Source of the DNA: Acidobacteriota bacterium | Lineage (GTDB): Bacteria > Acidobacteriota > Terriglobia > Bryobacterales > Bryobacteraceae | Assembly (NCBI GenBank): GCA_029776225.1 | Contig: JAKOTR010000102.1 | Span: 62,001 to 126,000 of the forward strand | Direction: 5' to 3' | DNA length: 64,000 nt | In this document: piece after piece, positions 8,612 through 60,574 of the stretch | Numbering within the stretch: the first letter of the stretch is position 1 | How the letters are laid out: each line of letters begins with the position of its first letter | Program-made: the position numbers and the translations under genes | Notes under the pieces: model-generated | What the model saw: the letters and a program-made list of their open reading frames with translations, nothing else | Database searches by the model: none | Told to the model about the DNA's origin: nothing

Positions 8612-10090
8612 CTATTTCGGGCGCCAGCGTACGACGGGCCTGCGCGCGGCGGTGACTTCGTCCACCCGGCCGATGCGCGTGTTGTGCGGAGCCTTGGTGA
8701 CCAGCTCGGGGTTTTCTTCCACCTCGCGGGCAATGGAGATCATCGCGTCGATAAAGGCGTCCAGTTCGCGCTTGCTCTCGGTTTCCGTGGGCTCGATCAT
8801 CAACGCCCCGTGAACGATCAGCGGAAAGCTGACCGTGTAGGGGTGGAAGCCGTAGTCGATGAGCCGCTTGGCGATGTCGCCGGTACGGACGCCGTGCTTT
8901 GCCTGTCGCGCGTCGCTGAACACGCACTCGTGAAGCGAAGGCGCCTCGGCGGCAATCTCGTAATGCGCTTCGAGTTTCTTGCGGATGTAGTTGGCGTTCA
9001 GCACGGCGTCGAGCGTTGCGTTGCGCAGGCCTTCGCCCCCGTGCGCCATGATGTAGGCCAGCGCGCGCACCAGCACTCCAAAATTACCGTAAAAAGCGCG
9101 GACACGGCCGATTGAGAGCGGGCGCTGGTAATCGAAAACCCACTTGCCGTCTTGCTGCTTCAAGCGCGGCACGGGCAAAAAGGGTTCCAAATGCCGCTTC
9201 ACCGCCACCGGACCGCTGCCCGGACCGCCGCCTCCGTGCGGGGTCGAGAACGTCTTGTGCAGGTTCAGGTGCATGACGTCCACGCCGTTGTCGCCCGGCC
9301 GCGTGATGCCGGCCAGCGCGTTCATGTTCGCGCCATCCATATAGAGCAGCGCGCCTTTGTCGTGCAGAATCTGGGCGATCTTGCGAATGTTCACCTCAAG
9401 CACGCCGAGCGTGTTGGGGTTGGTGATCATCAGCGCGGCCACGTCCTCATCGACGATGCGGGCGAGCGCCTCCACGTCCACCATGCCGCGTTCGTTCGAG
9501 CGTATGTTCTCGACCGCGTAGCCGGCAATGGCGGCGGTGGCGGGGTTGGTGCCGTGGGCGGAGTCGGGAATCAGCACCTTCTTGCGCGGATTGCCCCTCG
9601 ATTCCAGCAGCGCGCGGATGAGCAGGATGCCCGTGAGCTCGCCGTGCGCTCCGGCGGCGGGCTGCAACGTTACCGCGTCCATGCCTGTAATTTCAGCGAG
9701 GGCGGCTTCCAGGCGCGCCATCACTTCGAGCGCTCCCTGCACCAGCGGCTCGGGCTGATACGGGTGCGCCCAGGCAAGTCCCTCGATCCGCGCTACGGCC
9801 TCGTTCACGCGCGGGTTGTACTTCATCGTGCAGGAGCCGAGCGGGTAAACACCGAGGTCGATGGCGTAATTCCAGGTGGAAAGGCGCGTGAAGTGGCGTA
9901 TGGCCTCCACCTCGCTGACCTCGGGGAAGCCCTCGATTTCCGCGCGCGTGTTTTCCGCGCCGAGAACTTCGGCGGCGTCCACCGGGGGCACGTCCAGCTC
10001 GGGAAGCTGGTAGCCCTTCTTGCCGGGGGAACTCAGTTCGAACAGCAGCGGCTCATTCCGGCTGACGTGGGTTCGCGCCTCGCGAATCAT
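8612..10090 (-). CDS. gcvPB: Glycine dehydrogenase (decarboxylating) subunit 2
   Basis: This 492-residue PLP enzyme subunit belongs to the glycine cleavage system. With GcvPA it decarboxylates glycine and passes the aminomethyl group to lipoyl-GcvH. The PLP lysine is Lys279 in [25 protein letters not shown] and [10 protein letters not shown] are also present. The length is normal for the split two-subunit form. Its ATG (10090) overlaps the gcvPA stop by four bases (ATGA), so it is the last gene of the coupled gcvT-gcvH-gcvPA-gcvPB operon. Confidence 0.96.
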
Positions 10091-11427
10091 TGCGCCTCCA
10101 CCTCCCGCGGCTCGGCCGCGCTTGCGAAGGCCTCCGCCACTGCATCCATGTCAGGACGCCGGCTCATCTCGGTTGCGCAAAGCAGCATCGCGTTTTTCAG
10201 TTCCGGATAGAAGCGGCCCAGCGGAAGGCCGCCAATGATCTTCTTCTCGAGCAGCGCTTCGTTGAGAGCCACGGGGTCTTCCACGGTGGCGACAAACTCG
10301 TTGAAGAACGGGCCGTTGAACCGCAGCGGCAGCTTGCCGGCAAGATAGTGCGCCTTCGCCAGGTTCTGCTCGGCAAGTTCGCGCAGGCCCTGCTTGCCAT
10401 AGACGGTCATGAAAACCGTGGCCATCAGCGCGACCAGCGCCTGGTTGGTGCAGATATTGGATGTGGCCTTCTCGCGGCGTATGTGCTGCTCGCGGGTGGC
10501 CAGCGTCAGGCAGTACGCGCGGTTGCCGCGGGTGTCCACGGTCTCGCCTACCAGCCGCCCAGGAATCTGGCGGATATATTTCTCCCGCGTTGCGATCACA
10601 CCGGCAAATGGACCGCCAAAGCTCGGGGAAATGGCGAACGATTGCAGCTCGCCTGCCACAATGTCCGCAGCCGAAGGCGGAGCGATGATCCCGAGCGCCG
10701 TTGCCTCGGTGAACACGTCCACCAGCAGCGCGCCCGCGCCATGCGCGAGCTCCGCCGCCGCTCTGATGTCTTCGATGACGCCGAAGAAGTTCGGCGACTG
10801 CACGATCACCGCCGCGGTTGCGCCGTCGAGCTTGCGTTCGAGGTCTTCCAGATCGAGCGCGCCGCTTACGGCGTCGTACCCGAACTCGACCACCTCCAGC
10901 CCCTGGTTGCGCGCGTATGTAGCCAGCACTTCGCGGTATTCCGGATGGACGGTCCGTGCCACCAGCGCCCGCTTCCGGCCGGTGATCCGCACGGCCATCA
11001 TAGCGGCTTCGGCCATCGCCGTAGAGCCGTCGTACATGGACGCGTTGGCCACGTCCATGCCGGTGAGCTGGCACATCATCGTCTGGAACTCGAAGATGGC
11101 CGTCAGGGTGCCTTGTGAAATCTCGGCCTGGTAGGGCGTGTACGAAGTGAGGAACTCGCTCCGCGACACCACCGCATCCACCAGCACGGGGCGGTAGTGA
11201 TAATATGCCCCCGCGCCGAGAAAACACGGAGAACCGGTCACGTTCGCGGCGCCGCGCGCGCGGAACCAGTCGATAATCTCGTACTCCGACTTGCCGCTCT
11301 CGAGCGCGAGCGGGCGCGTCAAGCGCTCCTCAGGCGGCAGATGCGCGAACAACTCCTCGATGGAGCTCAAACCGCACGCCGCCAGCATTTCACGGCGCTC
11401 GGATTCCGACTTCGGAAGGTAACGCAA
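10087..11427 (-). CDS. gcvPA: Glycine dehydrogenase (decarboxylating) subunit 1
   Basis: This 446-residue partner of GcvPB forms the heterotetrameric P-protein. The start is TTG 11427 ([15 protein letters not shown]), which matches the conserved N-terminus of the family; no in-frame ATG fits as well. The family blocks [36 protein letters not shown] and FGGPFAGV are visible. It lies 17 bases after gcvH and overlaps gcvPB by four bases. Confidence 0.96.
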
Positions 11428-11444
11428 ATGATTTGCTCCCGGAT

Positions 11445-11831
11445 CTACTCAGCGCCGGCGTAGCTCTTGTACTCGGCCGCGGACATCAGGCCGCTCAACT
11501 CGTCCTGGGCGCTGAGCTTGATCTTGACGAGCCAGGCGGCGCCGTGCGGGTCCTGATTCAGTTTCTCGGGCGCGTCGGCGAGCGATTCGTTGACCTCGAC
11601 CACCTCGCCCGAAACCGGCGAATAAATATCGGAAACGGCTTTTACGGATTCCACCGAACCAAGGGGCTTGCCCTGCTCGACAACCGCGCCGACCTTGGGC
11701 AGGTCCACATAGACGATGTCGCCCAGCTCCCGCTGAGCGTGGTCGGTGATGCCTATGGTGCCGATTTCACCATCCACCTGCACCCACTCGTGTTCTTTCG
11801 TGTAACGGAACTGCTCTGGATATGTGCTCAT
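11445..11831 (-). CDS. gcvH: Glycine cleavage system H protein
   Basis: This 128-residue lipoyl carrier shuttles the aminomethyl group between P-, T- and L-proteins. The lipoylated lysine is Lys64 in [19 protein letters not shown]. The length is as expected. Its ATG overlaps the gcvT stop by four bases. The L-protein (lipoamide dehydrogenase) gene is not in the window. Confidence 0.97.
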
Positions 11832-12931
11832 TTCGCTCGCTTGTAAAAGGGCGTTGGAACCGTTATCGCCTCGACAAGCTGGCCGCGGATCGAGATCTGG
11901 ATTTTTCGCCCGGTCGCCGCCAGCTCCGCCGGAAGGTAACAGAGCCCGATGTTCTTGTTCAGTGCCGGCGAAGGCCCTCCGCTGGTGACCCAGCCCGCGG
12001 GCGAACCATCGACATACACTTCATAGCCGTCGCGGCCAATACCGCGTCCGGTCATCTCAAAACCTGTCAGCTTTCTTCGGACCCCTTCCCGCTGCTGGCG
12101 CTCCAGGCGATCACGCCCCAAAAAATCGCCTTTCTCCATTTTAACGGTCCATCCGAGGCCGGCCTCGAAAGGGGTGATTTCCGCGCTGATTTCGTGTCCG
12201 TAGAGCGGCATGGCGGCTTCCAGCCGCAGTGTGTTTCGCGCGCCAAGGCCGCATGGTTTGATGCCGAACTCTTTGCCCGCTTCCAGAATCTTGTCCCAGA
12301 TGCGCGGCGCCTCCTCGGGCGGAATGTAGATTTCAAAACCGTCCTCGCCGGTGTAACCCGTCCGCGAGATGCGCGCGGGCGTGCCGCAGACCTCGCCGTC
12401 GGTGAACCAATAGTAGCGAAGGCTTGCCAGATCCACCGCCGTGAGCTTCTGAAGCGTAGCCGCAGCGTGCGGCCCCTGGATGGCAAGCTGCGCGTAGCGG
12501 TCGCTGGAAAGCTCGACCTCGGCATCCCAGCGGTTGTGCGCCTGGATGTGCCGGGCGTCCTTTTCCTGGTTCGAGGCGTTCACGCAAAGGAAGTAGTGGT
12601 CGTCGGCAACCTTGTGCACCAGGATGTCGTCGACGTAGCCGCCGTGCTCGTAAAGCAGCCCCGAATACTGAATCTGGCCAGCGCGGAGGCGTGCGAGCGC
12701 GTTCGTCGTGACAAAATTTACAAGTTCAAAAGCTTGAGGCCCGCGAACGTCGATCTCTCCCATGTGGCTGACGTCGAACAGGCCAACCGCGCGCCGGACC
12801 GTGTTGTGTTCCTCGACGATGCCGGAGTATTGCACCGGCATCTCCCAGCCGCCGAAATCCACCATGCGCGCGCCGTGGCGGCGGTGGACAGAATAAAGCG
12901 GCGTCTGCTTCAAACCGGCGGAAGGAGTCAT
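11828..12931 (-). CDS. gcvT: Aminomethyltransferase (glycine cleavage T protein)
   Basis: This 367-residue protein releases ammonia from aminomethyl-lipoyl-GcvH and makes 5,10-methylene-tetrahydrofolate. The start is ATG 12931 (MTPSAGLKQTPLYSVH); a TTG precedes it directly. Characteristic blocks are MVDFGGWEMPVQY, GLFDVSHMGEI, ISRTGYTGEDGFEIY and GLGARNTLRLEA. It is the first gene of the operon and is divergent from bacterioferritin. I did not see a glycine riboswitch in the 128 bases between them. Confidence 0.96.
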   Translation of the reverse strand: MTPSAGLKQTPLYSVHRRHGARMVDFGGWEMPVQYSGIVEEHNTVRRAVGLFDVSHMGEIDVRGPQAFELVNFVTTNALARLRAGQIQYSGLLYEHGGYVDDILVHKVADDHYFLCVNASNQEKDARHIQAHNRWDAEVELSSDRYAQLAIQGPHAAATLQKLTAVDLASLRYYWFTDGEVCGTPARISRTGYTGEDGFEIYIPPEEAPRIWDKILEAGKEFGIKPCGLGARNTLRLEAAMPLYGHEISAEITPFEAGLGWTVKMEKGDFLGRDRLERQQREGVRRKLTGFEMTGRGIGRDGYEVYVDGSPAGWVTSGGPSPALNKNIGLCYLPAELAATGRKIQISIRGQLVEAITVPTPFYKRAK

Positions 12932-13007
12932 CAAATCAGAAGCCTAACAGGGCGCTGGAAGCGTGTCAAATACAACAAAGCTCTGAGCTTGCGCGGCGCT
13001 TACGTCT

Positions 13008-13021
13008 GTTATTCTGATAAC
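13008..13021. promoter_or_regulatory. Perfect palindrome GTTAT-TCTG-ATAAC between gcvT and bfr
   Basis: The arms GTTAT (13008-13012) and ATAAC (13017-13021) are perfect inverted copies around TCTG. The site lies about 40 bases before the bfr ATG and about 75 bases before gcvT, in the only shared promoter region. It has the size of a dimeric-regulator operator; which regulator is unknown. Confidence 0.35.
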
Positions 13022-13059
13022 GAAGCGGTAAATTACTGTCAGCAGGAGAACGCGTCCTA

Positions 13060-13530
13060 ATGAAGGGAAACGAGAAAGTCATCGCAGCACTGAACGAAGC
13101 TCTAAAGTCCGAGTTGACCGCAATCAATCAATACTTTTTGCACGCGGAGATGCGCCATGACTGGGGATATCAGGGCCTTTACCAGATCACCAAGAAGCAA
13201 TCGATCGACGAGATGAAGCATGCGGAAAGTCTGATCGAGCGCATCCTGTTTCTGGAAGGCGCCCCGAACATGTCCGAGCTGTTCCCGATCAAGGTAGGGG
13301 AGAACGTGAAAGCCCAATTCGAAAACGACCTGGCGCTGGAACTGGAGGCGGTGGCCCGCTACAACGCCAGCATCAAGCTCTGCGCCGAGGTGGGCGACAA
13401 CGCCAGCCGCGAGCTCTTCGTGAAGCTGCTGAAGGACGAAGAAGAGCACGTGGATTTCCTCGAATCACAGCTCCACCTGATCAGCGAAGTCGGTTTGGAG
13501 CGCTATCTCACCGAGCAGATCCGGGGCTAA
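13060..13530 (+). CDS. bfr: Bacterioferritin
   Basis: This 156-residue ferritin-like four-helix protein oxidises and stores iron in 24-mers with haem. All ferroxidase ligands are present at the classical positions: Glu18, Glu51, His54, Glu94, Glu127 and His130. The haem-ligand methionine is also present (Met52 in SIDEMKHA). It ends four bases before the convergent patatin gene. A palindrome upstream may be its operator. Confidence 0.96.
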   Translation: MKGNEKVIAALNEALKSELTAINQYFLHAEMRHDWGYQGLYQITKKQSIDEMKHAESLIERILFLEGAPNMSELFPIKVGENVKAQFENDLALELEAVARYNASIKLCAEVGDNASRELFVKLLKDEEEHVDFLESQLHLISEVGLERYLTEQIRG

Positions 13531-54042: not shown

Positions 54043-54960
54043 CTACATGGCGCGCTGGGTGCCGTCGATTTTCTGCCCGCTCAGCAAATTGAAGAACCGC
54101 GAAAAGCGGAATTGCAGGTCGCTGAAAGTGAGCAACCCGGCGAGTGCGTGCAGGATCGCAAAGAGCCGCACCTTCACACCGGCCAGAAACCCGAAATGTT
54201 TGCTCGCGTAAACCGCGGCGCCGAGCGCCCAGTCCGAGGCCAGCAGCGCGCGCACGGCGGGCGGCGCGGGCCGCTCAGGTTCTTCCTCGCGGCGGCTGAT
54301 GGCCCGAATTTTCGGGTACAGCAGAATCTTGCGGTTCGCGCGCCGGATCTGAATCGCCAGCTCCGCATCGGCCCAGGACTGCGCGTAGCGCTTGTCGATG
54401 TAGCGCAGGCCCTTGAGGAAGTAGCTGCGCACCATGTAGGCGCCGAGGCCGGCAAACGGCACAGCGACGTTTTCCTGTTCGAGATCTGGAATGGCGGCGG
54501 GGACGAAAGCGCCGGCGCGCGCCACTGCTGCCACGGTCGAGGCATCGGGAAGCTGGTACAGCTCCGGCACGGGCCTGCCGTCCGGCGTCACAAGAAGCGG
54601 ACAGACCGCGACGGCGTCGGTCTGTTCGGTGAGCCGCGCCGCCAGATCCGGGATGGTGCGGGGTAGCACCTCAACGCGCGGGTTGAGATAGAAATAGAGC
54701 TCGGCCTTGGCGGTGCGCATGCCGATGTTCAGCGCCTGCACGAAGCCGAAGTTGCGCGGCAGCGTGAGCAGGACCACCTGGGGAAACTCGCGCACCACTT
54801 CCGCGCTCCCGTCAACCGATCCCGAATCGATCACGATGACTTCTATCTTTTCGCGATCCTCGGAAGCCTCCACCGCCTGGAGGCACCTGCGCAGAGCGTC
54901 TGCGCAGTTGTAGGACACGATCAGCACAGACACTTGGGGAACGGTTTGAGTCTCTTCCAT
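54043..54960 (-). CDS. GT2-family glycosyltransferase-like protein, metal motif lost
   Basis: This 305-residue protein has a GT-A start (VSVLIVSYNCADALRRCL, VIVIDSGSVDGS) typical of rhamnosyltransferase-like GT2 enzymes. The motif that should supply the metal-binding Asp (NPD) is NPR (Asn93-Pro94-Arg95), and the later acidic motif is WADAEL. There are no membrane spans until a hydrophobic stretch near the C-terminus. It may bind but not transfer a sugar, or use an altered mechanism. It lies 45 bases after the kinase-like gene. Confidence 0.78.
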   Translation of the reverse strand: MEETQTVPQVSVLIVSYNCADALRRCLQAVEASEDREKIEVIVIDSGSVDGSAEVVREFPQVVLLTLPRNFGFVQALNIGMRTAKAELYFYLNPRVEVLPRTIPDLAARLTEQTDAVAVCPLLVTPDGRPVPELYQLPDASTVAAVARAGAFVPAAIPDLEQENVAVPFAGLGAYMVRSYFLKGLRYIDKRYAQSWADAELAIQIRRANRKILLYPKIRAISRREEEPERPAPPAVRALLASDWALGAAVYASKHFGFLAGVKVRLFAILHALAGLLTFSDLQFRFSRFFNLLSGQKIDGTQRAM

Positions 54961-55005: not shown

Positions 55006-56604
55006 TCAGTACCGGCGGTCAATTCCAACCACTTCCATGCCGCTCTTGCCCGTGCGGAAATAGACGGTAACTGACTTGTGCTGCGCGGGGCCGCGGATTT
55101 CAGCGCCGAAATAGGACCCCGGCGGCAGGTGCGCCAGTTCGCGCGGCAAGCTGACGGACCGCGCGCGCGGCAGCATAGTTTTCTTGCCGGAGAGATTGTC
55201 GAAGGAGAACCACTGGATCGAGTATTGCCGCGGCGGGCTGAAGCCGAACTCCACCCCGAGGTCCTCGAACTCGAGCGTGCCGTTTTCGAACCGGAAGTTA
55301 TCCAGCGGCAGCACGTCTTCCCAGAAAGTAGCCCCGATTTTGTCGCGGCGCGCAATTAGGGTTCTCACAAGCCATTCGCGCGCCTTCGGGTCGCTGTACT
55401 CGCCGACTTCGACGATGGCGCGGATGTCCTGGTCCGTGAACGCCATCACCTTCTTTGCGGCCCAGTAGGTGTCATCCGGACGCGCGTTGCGGAAGGCTGG
55501 GTTGGGGTAAATGGGCTTCCACTGGCGGGGATCGAAGGTAGCGTAGCCGAATTCTCCGAGTTCCGGGTGGTAGGGATCGGGGGTGACCTGCCAGGGGCGC
55601 GGCGCAAGCCCCAGAGTGAGCAACTGCCTCGCCGCGAAAGGAAGATCGAAAATGTACGCATTTCCCGACCGCAATACCCGCGGCCCGAGAGCGCTCGCAC
55701 CAAGCGTGGAGCCGAAGTCGAGCAGGTAATGCTTGACGAACCGCAGCCCGTTCTCCTCGACTACCGTGTCGAGCGTGTTGATCGCGACCGCATCGTAATG
55801 ATTCAACCAGGCGCAAAACACGTAGAGCCCGCGCAGGTCGCGCCGGTTCTCGTGTGGGACGATGTCGTTCGGATCGTCGGACCGCGTGCCGAAATACTGG
55901 AATGGCCCAATGATTTCACCGCCGATGAACCGGCTCGCCATGGCCCGGTAGCGGCCGTCCCTGGAGACACTCGTGCTTTTCAGGATGCGGACCAGATCGA
56001 CGTGCGTCATCAGCCGTTCCCTTCCCTCGGGCTCGAAGTATTTTGCGTCCGGGGCGAGAACGAGCTGGCTGGCCCGGAACCGCACGATGTAAGTCTCCGG
56101 CACGTTGTAGCCGATGGCGTGGAAAAACCGCGAGGAAATCACCTCGGCGGCGGTGGTGATGGACGGGTTCGAGGCGGGATCAAACTTGATGAGGAACTTG
56201 TCCCCGCGCGCGTCCTCGATAATCAGGCCGGGGGTGGCGCCGATGCCCTTCGCGCTGACGATTTTCCAGGGCCCGGCGGTAGAGGGAGGCCCGGCGGCGG
56301 TGGCGCCGCGGACCAGTTCAGTGACGCTCATCGGGCGGTTGAGGTCATGGCGGTTCTGATACCACGCGCTGTCGGGAACCTCGCCGAGCGTGTTGATGGC
56401 GCCCGAGGCCGCATCGGGGTTGCGCCCGGGCCGGAGGACGATCTGCTGCATCATGTCGTACGAGTCGCTGATTTTGCGCGCCTTGAGCTTTCCCACACGC
56501 AGCGGGGGCGGCTCGCGCCACAGCGGGTCGTCGGGGAAGAAAGACTGGGCCGGCGCAGACGCCACGAAGATGAACGCGGTCAGAAGCGCACCGGAACCCT
56601 TCAA
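55006..56604 (-). CDS. Secreted kinase-fold protein
   Basis: This 532-residue protein starts at TTG 56604, overlapping the barrel stop. A signal peptide (ALLTAFIFVASAPAQ) is followed by a kinase-like series in correct order: a glycine-rich turn (KGIGATPG, 119-126), Lys140 in FLIKFD, Glu154 in TAAEV, Asp271-x4-Asn276 in NHYDAVAIN and Asp296-Phe-Gly in LLDFGSTLG. These mirror the beta3 Lys, C-helix Glu, catalytic loop and DFG of protein kinases, and of HipA/FAM20-like relatives. A C-terminal ~100-residue beta-rich part follows. Phosphotransfer outside the cytoplasm is inference. Confidence 0.6.
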   Translation of the reverse strand: MKGSGALLTAFIFVASAPAQSFFPDDPLWREPPPLRVGKLKARKISDSYDMMQQIVLRPGRNPDAASGAINTLGEVPDSAWYQNRHDLNRPMSVTELVRGATAAGPPSTAGPWKIVSAKGIGATPGLIIEDARGDKFLIKFDPASNPSITTAAEVISSRFFHAIGYNVPETYIVRFRASQLVLAPDAKYFEPEGRERLMTHVDLVRILKSTSVSRDGRYRAMASRFIGGEIIGPFQYFGTRSDDPNDIVPHENRRDLRGLYVFCAWLNHYDAVAINTLDTVVEENGLRFVKHYLLDFGSTLGASALGPRVLRSGNAYIFDLPFAARQLLTLGLAPRPWQVTPDPYHPELGEFGYATFDPRQWKPIYPNPAFRNARPDDTYWAAKKVMAFTDQDIRAIVEVGEYSDPKAREWLVRTLIARRDKIGATFWEDVLPLDNFRFENGTLEFEDLGVEFGFSPPRQYSIQWFSFDNLSGKKTMLPRARSVSLPRELAHLPPGSYFGAEIRGPAQHKSVTVYFRTGKSGMEVVGIDRRY

Positions 56605-57824
56605 AACAGATCACCAAAGATCAACCAGACTTGCGGCCCCTCGCGGCTGAAACCCACGTCGAAACGCCAGGTTACAACGTTGCCCTGGCGGATGCGCACG
56701 CCGAATCCGTAGGAGGTGCTCAATTCCTGAAAGGGACGGATCTGTCCGAGGCTGGGAAAGACTTTTCCGGCGTCGACGAACAGGGCGGCGTCGGTTTGAT
56801 CCGCGATTTCCCAACGGTACTCCCCGTTCAGGACGAACATGTTGTTGTCGTAAAACCTGCGGTTGCGAAAACCTCGGAGACTCTCCGCGCCGCCGAGCCG
56901 GGGCTGGATGTAGAACGGCACGCCCTCCGAGCCAAACGGGTCGGCGAAGGCCGCCCTTGCGCGCAGCAACACTTCGCGCTGTCCGTTCAGCAGAGCGAAG
57001 TAGCGGCGGATATCAACATCGAACCGGCCGAATGTAAATCCTGCCGCCCCGGTGTCGAAGAACACCGCGTATTCCGTGAGGAGCCTCGTGCCGCTGCGCC
57101 GGCCCCTCGGATAGCGGACCCAATTGAAATCCAGGAATACGCCAGGATTGATGAAGTTTGTCTGCTGGTCCAGCCCGGGAGTTGTGGCGGGCGTGAAGAC
57201 CTCGTCGGTGGAAGCGAATTTGTCCTTGCGCCCCGGGCCGACGTTGAACAACAGATATCGGGTCAGCCCGCCGGTGCTGATGTTCCTGGAGAGATTGTAG
57301 CCGCTGCGAACCTCGAAACCCGTGTTCTCGAATGAGTAGGCGGTGCGCCCGCTCTTCTGTGAGCCGGGGCCAGGCCCGTAGTAATCGAGGTAAGGCGACC
57401 ACTGGCGCAGCGCCAGGAATTCGAGCGACGCGCGGCCGCCGGCGAGGTTCGGAAAGCCGAACGCCGCATCCGCCAGATAGAAAGCCTCGGTGGTGCCCAC
57501 CACCGAAGTGCGCACCTCGCCCCGTCCGCCAAACAAGCCGCGCCTGAGATACTGCGGACCGGCGGCGAACCCGCCGCCCGGAGCGTCAAAGCGTATGCTC
57601 ACCTCCGGGGTCGGAGACGTGATCCGGTAATACAGGCGGTTCTCCTCGAAATAGAGAAAACCCCGGTGCAAAGCGGGCAGCCGTTCCGGTGTGAGGTGAG
57701 CGGCTTTTTCTACCCGCTTCGCCTCTATCTGAGCGGCGCGCGTGGCCGGGGGTGGATTGGCGGAAGCGTGCAGAAGGGTCGCGGCGGCAAGGAAACATGG
57801 GGCGCGTGTACGGGTGTGTTTCAC
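56601..57824 (-). CDS. Omp85-superfamily beta-barrel without POTRA domains
   Basis: This 407-residue protein starts at GTG 57824, with GGGGAG upstream. A signal peptide is followed by a short N-terminal segment. The rest is alternating amphipathic strands ending in Phe (WLIFGDLF), with the loop-6 signature LGGAESLRGFRNRRFYDNN of BamA/TamA-like proteins. There is room for only the barrel, not for POTRA repeats. It is probably an outer-membrane pore or plug-type insertase/translocator. Its stop overlaps the kinase-like gene start (TTGA). Confidence 0.8.
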   Translation of the reverse strand: MKHTRTRAPCFLAAATLLHASANPPPATRAAQIEAKRVEKAAHLTPERLPALHRGFLYFEENRLYYRITSPTPEVSIRFDAPGGGFAAGPQYLRRGLFGGRGEVRTSVVGTTEAFYLADAAFGFPNLAGGRASLEFLALRQWSPYLDYYGPGPGSQKSGRTAYSFENTGFEVRSGYNLSRNISTGGLTRYLLFNVGPGRKDKFASTDEVFTPATTPGLDQQTNFINPGVFLDFNWVRYPRGRRSGTRLLTEYAVFFDTGAAGFTFGRFDVDIRRYFALLNGQREVLLRARAAFADPFGSEGVPFYIQPRLGGAESLRGFRNRRFYDNNMFVLNGEYRWEIADQTDAALFVDAGKVFPSLGQIRPFQELSTSYGFGVRIRQGNVVTWRFDVGFSREGPQVWLIFGDLF

Positions 57825-58052
57825 AGCTCTCCCCGGAAGCCGGAAAATCGCGGAACGTCAACCCGGCCCGAGCGGCCCGGTTCCCAGTTACCCACATTAT
57901 CCCTGAAAACACGGAGATTCCGCGACTCCACGAGCACCTGCCCCTTATTTTTCAGCTTCTTGCGTCCACTCGGGGCCAATGGGAACCTGAACATAGACCG
58001 GCTGCGGTAGGACTGCACAACCGCGCCGGTGCGGATTCCTGCGGCAGGGGCG

Positions 58053-59411
58053 ATGCGTTGGCTTCGGGCGATCTTCGTCAGGCAGTACTCAAGCATCCGG
58101 CCGGAGGAATGGCCGAAAGCCCTGCTTCTTTCGGCCTACTTTTTCTTGCTGATCGCCACCTATTGGGTGCTGAAGCCCGTCAAGCGCGGTCTTCTGATCG
58201 ATCACTTCAGCCACGATCCGCTCCACATCCTGGGATTCAGCCTGGGCGGCGCGGAAGCCGAGCAGGTAGCGAAAGTCATGAATGTGGTGGGCGCCTACCT
58301 GGCCGTGATCCTCTTCACATGGATGGCGCGCAGGCTGCGGCGCGAGCGGCTGGTGCTGGTCTTCACAGCTCTCTTCGCCGCAGTGTTCGCGGCTTACTCG
58401 CAAGCCGTCGATCATCCCGGCGAGTTTACCGTCTGGTCGCTCTACATGTTAGGCGACCTGTTCAACACGCTCATGGTCGGGTTGTTCTGGGCGTACACCA
58501 ACGATCTCACGACGGCGGGCGGCGCAAAGCGCACGTACAACGTGATCGGGTTGGGCGGCGTGCTGGGCGGCTTTGCCGGAGCCTCGATGGTCAGCATCCT
58601 GGTCCAGGATTTCGGAAGGGCCCCTCTGATGCTGCTATGCATCGTGCCCATGGCCGGGATCGCAGTGATCGCGGTCCTGATGCGGCGGCTGGACAGAAGC
58701 CCTCGGCCGGTCGCGCCGCCTCCGCAGCCACACAACATCAGCGCAGCCATTGAAGGCGGGCAGCTGGTTCTTCGGTCGTGGTATCTGGTGTCGATCGCGG
58801 GCCTGGTGGCGAGCTATGAGCTGGTCTCGAGCGTGGTCGACTTCCAATTGGCGGTCACGGTGGAGCGCACTATCTCAGACGCGCTTGCCAAGGACGCGTT
58901 CTTCGCCACCGTGGGACAGGCGATCGGCATTATGTCGGTCCTGGTTCAGTTGCTGCTCACCGGCTTCGTAATGCAGAAGTACGGATTGCGCGCCGCTCTG
59001 CTGTTTCTGCCGGTGGCCGTGGCCCTGGGCTCGTTGGGATTCCTCGCGATGCCGGCCCTGGCGTTCGCCGCGGCCATTTCCGTCAGCGACAACGCGCTGA
59101 ATTACTCGATCAACCAGTCGGCCAAAGAGGCGCTTTACACGCCGACCTCGGCCGACGAGAAGTACAAGGCGAAGGCGTTCATCGACATGTTCGTGCAGCG
59201 AATGGCCAAGTCCGGCTCCGTGGTGTTCAACCTCGGTTTAAGTGCCGTCGCGGTGACGGCGGTGCGCTGGCTTTCGCTGGTCACGCTGGCCATCGTCGCG
59301 ATCTGGCTCATCATGGTTTTCGCGGCGTCGCGCGGCTTCCGGCGCCTGACGGAGCGGAGCACGAAGCGAGACGACTCTCCCGTATGGGGAGAGGGAAGCG
59401 AGGCGGCATAG
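58053..59411 (+). CDS. NTP/NDP-exchange-type (ATP/ADP translocase-like) transporter
   Basis: This 452-residue protein is read from ATG 58053 (MRWLRAIFVRQ); GTG 58029 is also open. It has about 12 membrane spans, with EEWPKALLLSAYFFLLIATY, YWVLKPVKRGLLI and the block AKEALYTPTSADEKYKAKAF. These match the ADP/ATP carrier-like group within the MFS that is found outside obligate intracellular bacteria. The substrate here is unknown. It is divergent from the Omp85 operon. Confidence 0.8.
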   Translation: MRWLRAIFVRQYSSIRPEEWPKALLLSAYFFLLIATYWVLKPVKRGLLIDHFSHDPLHILGFSLGGAEAEQVAKVMNVVGAYLAVILFTWMARRLRRERLVLVFTALFAAVFAAYSQAVDHPGEFTVWSLYMLGDLFNTLMVGLFWAYTNDLTTAGGAKRTYNVIGLGGVLGGFAGASMVSILVQDFGRAPLMLLCIVPMAGIAVIAVLMRRLDRSPRPVAPPPQPHNISAAIEGGQLVLRSWYLVSIAGLVASYELVSSVVDFQLAVTVERTISDALAKDAFFATVGQAIGIMSVLVQLLLTGFVMQKYGLRAALLFLPVAVALGSLGFLAMPALAFAAAISVSDNALNYSINQSAKEALYTPTSADEKYKAKAFIDMFVQRMAKSGSVVFNLGLSAVAVTAVRWLSLVTLAIVAIWLIMVFAASRGFRRLTERSTKRDDSPVWGEGSEAA

Positions 59412-59434: not shown

Positions 59435-60475
59435 TCACGGATTCCAGGTCAGAGAGAGTGCGTACGTACGCGTGCTCGGGCTGAACGTGATGCCGGGCGT
59501 CGGGATGGCACGCGACCGCTCCCGAATGGGCGCGCCGCCCAGAGACGGATCGTGGTGCCTTCGATAAATGAAGGCGCCGATCAGGTTTCCAATCACCGCC
59601 CCAGCGATCACGTCCGAAGCAAAATGGCGCCGGGCGGCGATCCGCGACGCGCTCACCGTGACCGGAAGCGCATAGATGCCGTAGCGGATCCATTTGTTGT
59701 CGTAGTATTCGCGCGAAATGATGGCCGCCACTGCCCACGTGCCGGCCGCGTGCCCGGAGGGAAACGACTGCTGGCCGCTAAAAAAATTTCCTTTGCCCGC
59801 GCCGTAATCCGGACGCTCTCTTCCGAACGCCCACTTCGACATCTGAACGACGGACTCCGTATGGAGCAGCGCCGCGGCCGACAACAGGCCGGTTTCCGTC
59901 GCGCGGCGGTTGCCGCCGAGCTTTCCGGCCAGCAGGAAAGATGCCGTGAGCCCGCCCAGTGCGTAGTACGTGCCGGCGTGCGACACTGCACGCCCGACGT
60001 TTACCTGAGTGGAAGAGTTCGGCAGAGCGCCGGCCACGCGGTGGTCAAACTGGCTCATCGCCACGGTAGCGCCGATCGCCGGCAACAGCCACGGCAGATG
60101 GCTCTTTTGGACTTTCATCGGGGCCAGCCAGATGTCCCTTTGATCCTTCAGCAGCGTGTTGATCGCGGAAGCCCACGCGGGACCGTCCAGTCCGAGAGAC
60201 GATGACGCTTTCGGAACGGGCGGAGGCGCCTCGTCACTACCAGAAGGCCATCCCGGAGAGCTTGCGGGCTGCGGCAATTGCGTATCAAGCGGCGCTGCGA
60301 GGCGGGAAGGTGGAACAAAAAACTCCGTCCGGCTTGTTACGGTGCTGCTTTCGAGGCCGCTTTGCGCCGCGGCCGGCTCCCCAAACTGCACTCCGGCCGC
60401 GTTGGATGAGAACGAGATCGCGAGCAGGAAGAACGGCAGGAGGGAAACAAAACTGCATTTCCCTGAATACAACAT
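59435..60475 (-). CDS. Secreted PAP2-family phosphatase
   Basis: This 346-residue protein is read from ATG 60475 (MLYSGKCSFVSLLPFFLLA), which gives a signal peptide. A Pro/Ser-rich stretch precedes the PAP2 core with its three motifs in order: KWAFGRERP, SFPSGHA and SRIAARRHFASD. The C-terminus resembles an outer-membrane-type end. It dephosphorylates lipid phosphates in its family. It follows the sulfatase gene on the same strand after a gap of about 100 bases. Confidence 0.88.
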   Translation of the reverse strand: MLYSGKCSFVSLLPFFLLAISFSSNAAGVQFGEPAAAQSGLESSTVTSRTEFFVPPSRLAAPLDTQLPQPASSPGWPSGSDEAPPPVPKASSSLGLDGPAWASAINTLLKDQRDIWLAPMKVQKSHLPWLLPAIGATVAMSQFDHRVAGALPNSSTQVNVGRAVSHAGTYYALGGLTASFLLAGKLGGNRRATETGLLSAAALLHTESVVQMSKWAFGRERPDYGAGKGNFFSGQQSFPSGHAAGTWAVAAIISREYYDNKWIRYGIYALPVTVSASRIAARRHFASDVIAGAVIGNLIGAFIYRRHHDPSLGGAPIRERSRAIPTPGITFSPSTRTYALSLTWNP

Positions 60476-60574
60476 TTTTTCAGCATACAACGAAGCGGTA
60501 ATTTGCCGTCTTAAGATTTCTCCACGTAACGGGAACACGCCGTTTCCGCGCCCGCGGCTATTGGAAATTGCAGC

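Follow-up and report, generated by a model that had tools for sequence, protein, structure and literature searches.

Acidobacteriota encode an exported protein with a kinase fold, hereafter KIN, whose gene is constantly paired with that of an Omp85-type outer membrane barrel (OMP) and repeatedly with that of an ATP/ADP translocase-family transporter (NTT). The founding locus lies in a window of 64,000 nucleotides, the whole stretch of DNA that was analysed, from a 5.18 Mb Acidobacteriota genome (G000). The export signal, the kinase fold, the conserved active site and the two gene pairings are the observations on which we base a model of a periplasmic KIN that is docked at the barrel, is fed with ATP by NTT and modifies a target in the envelope. 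We consider this model as a whole moderately probable; catalysis, ATP export, docking at the barrel and the substrate are the parts of it that we infer.

KIN (532 aa, TTG start) occupies positions 55006–56604 of the minus strand and is described as an exported HipA/Fam20-like kinase-fold protein on the basis of its open reading frame, an AlphaFold2 model, Foldseek and VIA-align searches and more than 100 homologues. OMP (407 aa), a 16-stranded barrel of the Omp85 type that lacks POTRA domains (Pfam, AlphaFold2 and Foldseek), forms an operon with KIN and lies directly upstream on the same strand, at 56601–57824. The overlap of the two genes amounts to 4 nt, TTGA, within which the TTG start of KIN and the TGA stop of OMP have two bases in common, and this overlap suggests that their translation is coupled. 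An intergenic region of 204 nt (57825–58028, from the ORF coordinates) separates the pair from the divergent NTT gene (460 aa, 58029–59411, plus strand), which was recognised by Pfam (PF03219, TLC), phmmer and its proximity to KIN; one weak promoter-like match was found there (57820–57848, plus strand). Beyond NTT, a PAP2-family phosphatase is encoded at 59435–60538 on the minus strand (Pfam PAP2 3.9e-20) and may be an accessory component. A conserved link of KIN to the downstream glycosyltransferase (54043–54960) was considered and rejected, as no homologue of it was found beside other KINs.

The AlphaFold2 model of KIN, built from a 28-member alignment, reached a pLDDT of 91.2 and a pTM of 0.91. 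The N-lobe contains strands 113–119, 126–130 and 136–141, the last carrying K140; there follow, in the order seen in kinases, a helix with E154 (149–164), a helix (255–267) leading to the D271/N276 loop, and a strand (287–294) leading to the DFG motif (296–298). Strands also make up a C-terminal beta-rich region, residues 434–531 (55012–55305, minus strand). The best Foldseek matches were a Golgi casein kinase related to Fam20C (1.0e-4) and H. pylori CtkA (2.2e-4). In VIA-align, KIN was superimposed on CtkA with Z 14.8 (230 residues, rmsd 4.1), Fam20C with Z 14.0 (260 residues, rmsd 3.9), PI4KII with Z 12.9 (235 residues, rmsd 4.2), the hydra Fam20 glycosaminoglycan xylosylkinase with Z 12.8, CotH with Z 12.2 (233 residues, rmsd 4.3), and HipT and HipA with Z 9–12. 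All 50 VIA-align matches listed for KIN were kinase-fold chains. Judged from the predicted structure, it is virtually certain that KIN has a kinase fold.

The KIN family was surveyed in a sample of 297 Acidobacteriota genomes, 50 of which encode it. Scanning species-representative genomes yielded 406 KIN-related stretches, from which 79 loci were taken with flanks of up to 10 kb. Residue conservation was counted in 99 non-redundant KIN sequences. The N-lobe strands assigned to nucleotide binding (residues 112–142, 56179–56271, minus strand, as are all motifs below; AlphaFold2 strands and conservation) enclose a turn with Gly122 kept in 98 and Gly126 in 97 of the 99 sequences, and include Lys140 (56185–56187), a position occupied by K in 94 and by R in 4. 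An acidic residue, D or E, stands at the position of the C-helix Glu154 (56143–56145; model helix and conservation) in all 99. In the catalytic-loop motif Asp271-x4-Asn276 (55777–55794), placed by conservation and by profile alignment with the D-x4-N of HipA_C, the Asp is kept in 96 and the Asn in 97 homologues, and in the DFG motif (55711–55719) Asp296 is invariant, with Phe297 found in 94 and Gly298 in 95. K/R140, D271, N276 and D296 occur together in 94 of the 99 KINs, and one key residue is lost in the other five. The residue set of the protein-kinase-like superfamily (beta3 Lys, C-helix acid, Asp, Asn and DFG Asp) is present, each of its members in 94–99 of the 99 homologues. Since these motifs are kept across 99 non-redundant homologues, their occurrence in KIN is not a matter of chance.

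An earlier note on this DNA, made from the single sequence, had read Lys140 (in FLIKFD), Glu154, Asp271-x4-Asn276 and Asp296-Phe-Gly as a set of kinase motifs and had proposed a protein-kinase-like fold, to be checked by conservation among homologues and by a fold search; all motifs are at the positions it gave, and both checks bear out its reading. KIN is very probably catalytically active. Conserved more strongly than the catalytic motifs is a family signature, R-x-DD-x-ND-x3-H-x3-R-x2-R, at residues 241–258 (55831–55884): R241, D243, D244, N246, H251, R255 and R258 are present in all 99 KINs and D247 in 98.

KIN is a separate family within the kinase superfamily, which would work in the manner of the HipA toxins, Fam20 and CotH but belongs to none of them. 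In Pfam scans, the KIN of the window scored 12.8 bits against HipA_C, below the curated 30.5, and gave no match to HipA_2 (PF20613; curated score 27 bits), CotH (PF08757) or Fam20C (PF06702), the last of which was also missing from the family tally. Its paralogue in the same genome scored 16.5 bits against HipA_2, under the curated 27. Among the KIN homologues, HipA_2 matched 15 of 28 (best E 5.8e-4), and the best E for HipA_C was 8e-5. When the profile of the KIN kinase domain alone was compared with acidobacterial family profiles (hhalign), HipA_2 was aligned at E 3.6e-4 and HipA_C at 1.8e-3, with D271, N276 and D296 falling on D, N and D of HipA_C; no alignment was obtained with acidobacterial CotH (0.49), with Ser/Thr kinases of the cytoplasm (0.2) or with any of four unrelated decoys (0.08 or worse). 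The full-length comparison was noisier (HipA_2 1.5e-4, HipA_C 6.4e-3), and because one decoy reached 0.016 in it, the sequence link between KIN and HipA is weak and the argument is carried mainly by the fold. A search of the KIN profile against the sequences of solved structures returned nothing relevant (pyruvate carboxylase, E 0.027).

The HipA superfamily (HipA, HipT, CtkA) thus has the kinase fold and weak profile homology in common with KIN; the HipA toxins, however, are cytoplasmic and work with a HipB/HipS partner, whereas KIN has a signal peptide, lacks a HipB-like partner and neighbours an Omp85 barrel and NTT. Fam20 (Fam20C, Fam20B) and CotH are divergent-fold kinases of extracytoplasmic compartments and the spore coat, and their fold resembles that of KIN. 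We know of no Fam20 or CotH locus with a barrel plus an ATP translocase. KIN has a clear DFG motif, while CotH is described as lacking one in the part of a phosphorelay review considered here (PMC12189002).

A Sec signal peptide is predicted by eye at residues 1–19 of KIN (56548–56604, minus strand); its sequence is MKGSGALLTAFIFVASAPA, followed by QS, with cleavage at about APA/QS. A signal-like hydrophobic core precedes the conserved mature start F-x-x-DDP in 78 of 81 KIN-family ORFs, which supports the signal peptide and the extracytoplasmic location that the earlier note had assumed. KIN is almost certainly extracytoplasmic. Only 3 of the 81 ORFs have a Cys close to the mature start, so most KINs are probably not lipoproteins but become soluble once cleaved.

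OMP matches Pfam Omp85 at 7.4e-13 (49.1 bits against a cut-off of 24). Its AlphaFold2 model (pLDDT 86, pTM 0.76) forms a barrel of 16 strands, which Foldseek groups with the BamA/TamA barrels at 2.6e-12. BamA and TamA share the 16-stranded barrel with OMP and differ in carrying POTRA domains; no such domain is seen in the OMP model, where three short helices (29–69) precede the barrel. This N-terminal segment of about 40 residues is helical and conserved (R29, R37, K40, P46, E53), and suggests itself as a candidate site of docking in the periplasm. Adjacency was counted in the 49 KIN loci whose flanks extend 4 kb or more each way, and OMP adjoins KIN in all of them. The barrel gene of the window lies directly upstream, as stated in the earlier note, and the coupling of barrel and kinase claimed there is supported by this adjacency; KIN and the barrel are quite likely to be coupled functionally.

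The NTT neighbour, absent from the first reading of the sequence, is the largest change to the mechanistic picture. The gene at 58029–59411 is a clear member of the family of the plastid, Chlamydia and Rickettsia NTT/TLC translocases, with a PF03219 match at 5.2e-26 (91.9 bits against 21) and phmmer matches to the solved ADP,ATP carriers 9j3n (1.8e-13) and 9j3j (3.6e-12). Its proximity to KIN was counted by tblastn, with overlapping hits excluded: of the 51 loci that could be assessed, 30 had an NTT no more than 4 kb from KIN and 21 did not. Where KIN is flanked by 9.3 kb of sequence each way (31 loci), the number of NTTs per 2-kb step from KIN was 15, 9, 1 and then 0. Among 81 KIN loci, NTT lies directly downstream in the same direction in 23, its alignment beginning no more than 75 nt from where KIN ends and often overlapping it; in 12 it has the arrangement of the window, divergent and upstream of OMP, and in 7 it is placed otherwise. 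An OMP-KIN-NTT operon is an arrangement often met among the loci. Mapped onto the KIN tree, NTT adjacency requires a minimum of 13 changes, and supported branches by themselves call for at least 6 for the downstream and at least 4 for the divergent arrangement; because of these repeated changes, the linkage is not one inherited layout.

KIN occurs at two loci in the genome of the window itself, and each of them has one of the genome's two NTT genes (by PF03219) beside it. In the second locus, OMP, KIN and an NTT-HEAT fusion follow each other on a single strand as overlapping genes, and NTT begins within the end of KIN. In the 297 genomes, KIN and NTT were both present in 36, KIN only in 14, NTT only in 35 and neither in 212 (Fisher P 9e-16, phylogeny uncorrected); the 14 of 50 KIN genomes without an NTT match at E 1e-6 include some incomplete drafts. 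In the KIN genomes, 13 of 48 NTT genes were located within 5 kb of KIN, with about 0.17 expected. Plasmid records contained no relative of KIN or NTT-HEAT and one weak match to SK2, the family described below.

If NTTs feed secreted kinases, then those of KIN-less genomes should adjoin other secreted kinases. Twenty NTT regions from KIN-less genomes were scanned with HMMs of the families seen around KIN, and SK2, a small neighbour family first seen in six KIN loci, was found in 12 of them (L178, L181, L182, L184, L186, L187, L189–L193 and L195; a further copy flanking NTT lies at L075:4308-5342). SK2 copies are sometimes tandem, with three consecutive in L184. The family has the motifs D-R-x3-N and I-D-H-[ST]-R-x-F, in this order, and mostly signal-like N-termini; of 13 sequences, 11 matched Pfam PI3_PI4_kinase, 10 HipA_2 and 5, weakly, Fam20C, while the SK2 profile matched Fam20A (1.8e-8) and Fam20B/C (3e-5 to 1.4e-4) in the PDB. 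Four SK2s are parts of fusions in which they follow an exported calcineurin-like phosphatase domain and which appear to be extracytoplasmic (L181:10539-12419, L191:11189-13048, L193:4922-6784, L195:11466-13649).

Across the 297 genomes, SK2 and NTT were both present in 53, SK2 only in 5, NTT only in 18 and neither in 221 (P 5e-37, phylogeny uncorrected), and the corresponding numbers within KIN-less genomes were 30, 1, 5 and 211. For KIN or SK2 taken together they were 66, 15, 5 and 211 (P 6e-45, phylogeny uncorrected), that is, a secreted kinase is encoded in 66 of 71 NTT-positive and in 15 of 226 NTT-negative genomes, the 66 being spread over 30 family codes. As a negative control, the cytosolic HipA_C kinases, which are equally patchy (68 of the 297 genomes), showed no association with NTT (20/48/51/178, P 0.26). 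In the SK2 genomes, 30 of 75 NTT genes had SK2 within 5 kb, with about 0.5 expected. These 297 genomes were all Acidobacteriota, detection relied on fixed E-value cut-offs and the Fisher tests are uncorrected for phylogeny; the closeness of the genes on the chromosome is stronger evidence than co-occurrence. It is an evenly balanced proposition that Acidobacteriota have an energised envelope, in which NTT would export ATP to the periplasm and power at least two secreted kinase families, KIN with its barrel and SK2.

In the proposed mechanism, KIN would be an extracytoplasmic ATP-using phosphotransferase, placed within the kinase superfamily on the side of HipA, Fam20, CotH and PI4KII, which is exported by its Sec signal peptide, acts in the periplasm and docks to its partner Omp85-type barrel. 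At the inner membrane, NTT would pass ATP out of the cytoplasm, take spent ADP back in return and in this way keep KIN supplied with ATP, in keeping with the ATP/ADP exchange carried out by characterised NTT relatives; that NTT supplies ATP to KIN seems to us somewhat better than an even bet. The target is probably a protein or glycan of the envelope or surface, handled by the barrel or close to it. An active KIN could, however, be other than a protein kinase and act on an envelope glycan or lipid, or transfer AMP or another group, with NTT still the source of the nucleotide, a reading that we regard as a tentative but real alternative. Fam20B phosphorylates a xylose and PI4KII a lipid, and the fold neighbours of KIN include PI4KII and the hydra xylosylkinase as well as protein kinases; the NTT-linked SK2 family too matches Fam20 and PI4K profiles. 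As for AMP transfer, the intact DFG and D-x4-N motifs speak for phosphotransfer instead.

KIN could also be a pseudokinase or a scaffold with a regulatory effect on the barrel, its proximity to NTT reflecting shared regulation and not ATP supply. The stricter pairing with the barrel (49/49) than with NTT (30/51) and the existence of secreted pseudokinases, Fam20A being so named in the PDB, favour this view, but 94 of the 99 diverged KINs retain the catalytic residues, which would be unexpected for such a family and makes the view very unlikely in our estimate. The barrel might also be a dedicated secretion pore that brings KIN to the cell surface, to act outside the cell. Omp85 proteins do include secretion pores (TpsB/FhaC), and the constancy of the KIN-barrel pairing would agree with such a role; known pores of this kind, however, bind their cargo through POTRA domains, which OMP lacks, and external ATP would dilute away, so that we hold this to be distinctly improbable. 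Alternatively, NTT may scavenge external nucleotides or NAD, with the exported phosphatases and kinases forming a salvage pathway and no ATP being exported. The recurrence of secreted metallophosphoesterases and PAP2 phosphatases near KIN fits this reading, as do the origin of the characterised NTTs in parasites or organelles and their description mostly as uptake systems, some relatives transporting NAD (Major et al. 2017, PMC5381601). Yet kinases outside the cytoplasm use up ATP and have no obvious role in salvage, and two distinct secreted kinase families associate with NTT, at least one of them being present in 66 of the 71 NTT genomes; scavenging is thus an unlikely account.

Should such an energised envelope exist, it would be a phosphorylation system working beyond the cytoplasm on a dedicated supply of ATP, and the NTTs of free-living bacteria would thereby gain a function. 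Bacteria would then have a counterpart of Fam20C, the kinase of the Golgi, complete with a nucleotide source, and a means of phosphorylating their own envelope. To our knowledge, the bacterial periplasm is generally held to be without ATP, a standing objection to extracytoplasmic kinases in diderms. The KIN-NTT linkage connects this problem of periplasmic ATP for kinases with that of the role of free-living NTTs, and the three-gene operon makes both questions directly testable. According to the part of Major et al. 2017 considered here, NTTs and NTT-HEAT fusions are widespread in free-living bacteria, where they have no established role; three acidobacterial sequences are included, and that part links NTTs to no secreted kinase (PMC5381601). 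The phosphorelay review treats CotH as the bacterial relative of Fam20C and, in the part considered, describes no kinase of the periplasm that is provided with ATP (PMC12189002). No report of the KIN-barrel-NTT linkage was found in the literature searched, the search lying outside preprints and most subscription journals.

Phosphatases are further recurrent neighbours of KIN. Within 4 kb of it, PAP2 genes were found in 7 of 49 loci and a secreted metallophosphoesterase of the purple-acid type in 12 of 49; such secreted phosphatases would fit reversible phosphorylation or nucleotide recovery. A gene for a Ser/Thr protein kinase with predicted membrane segments was noted about 3.5 kb downstream of KIN, e.g., in L067, L077, L080 and L084; it is located within 4 kb of KIN in 14 of 49 loci, often past a second, longer NTT. 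The KIN-barrel-NTT locus of L084 derives from a MAG labelled Arcobacter sp., and its resemblance to the acidobacterial loci suggests that this MAG is misbinned or misnamed. The KINs of L014 (from 1441) and L017 (from 1477), of 963–966 aa, have in common about 430 additional C-terminal residues; a KIN-barrel fusion was considered for them and rejected, as these C-terminal parts, judged by eye, are unlike the barrel. In L037 and L039 (about 10000–13235), KIN is duplicated in tandem, with one barrel gene ahead of both copies.
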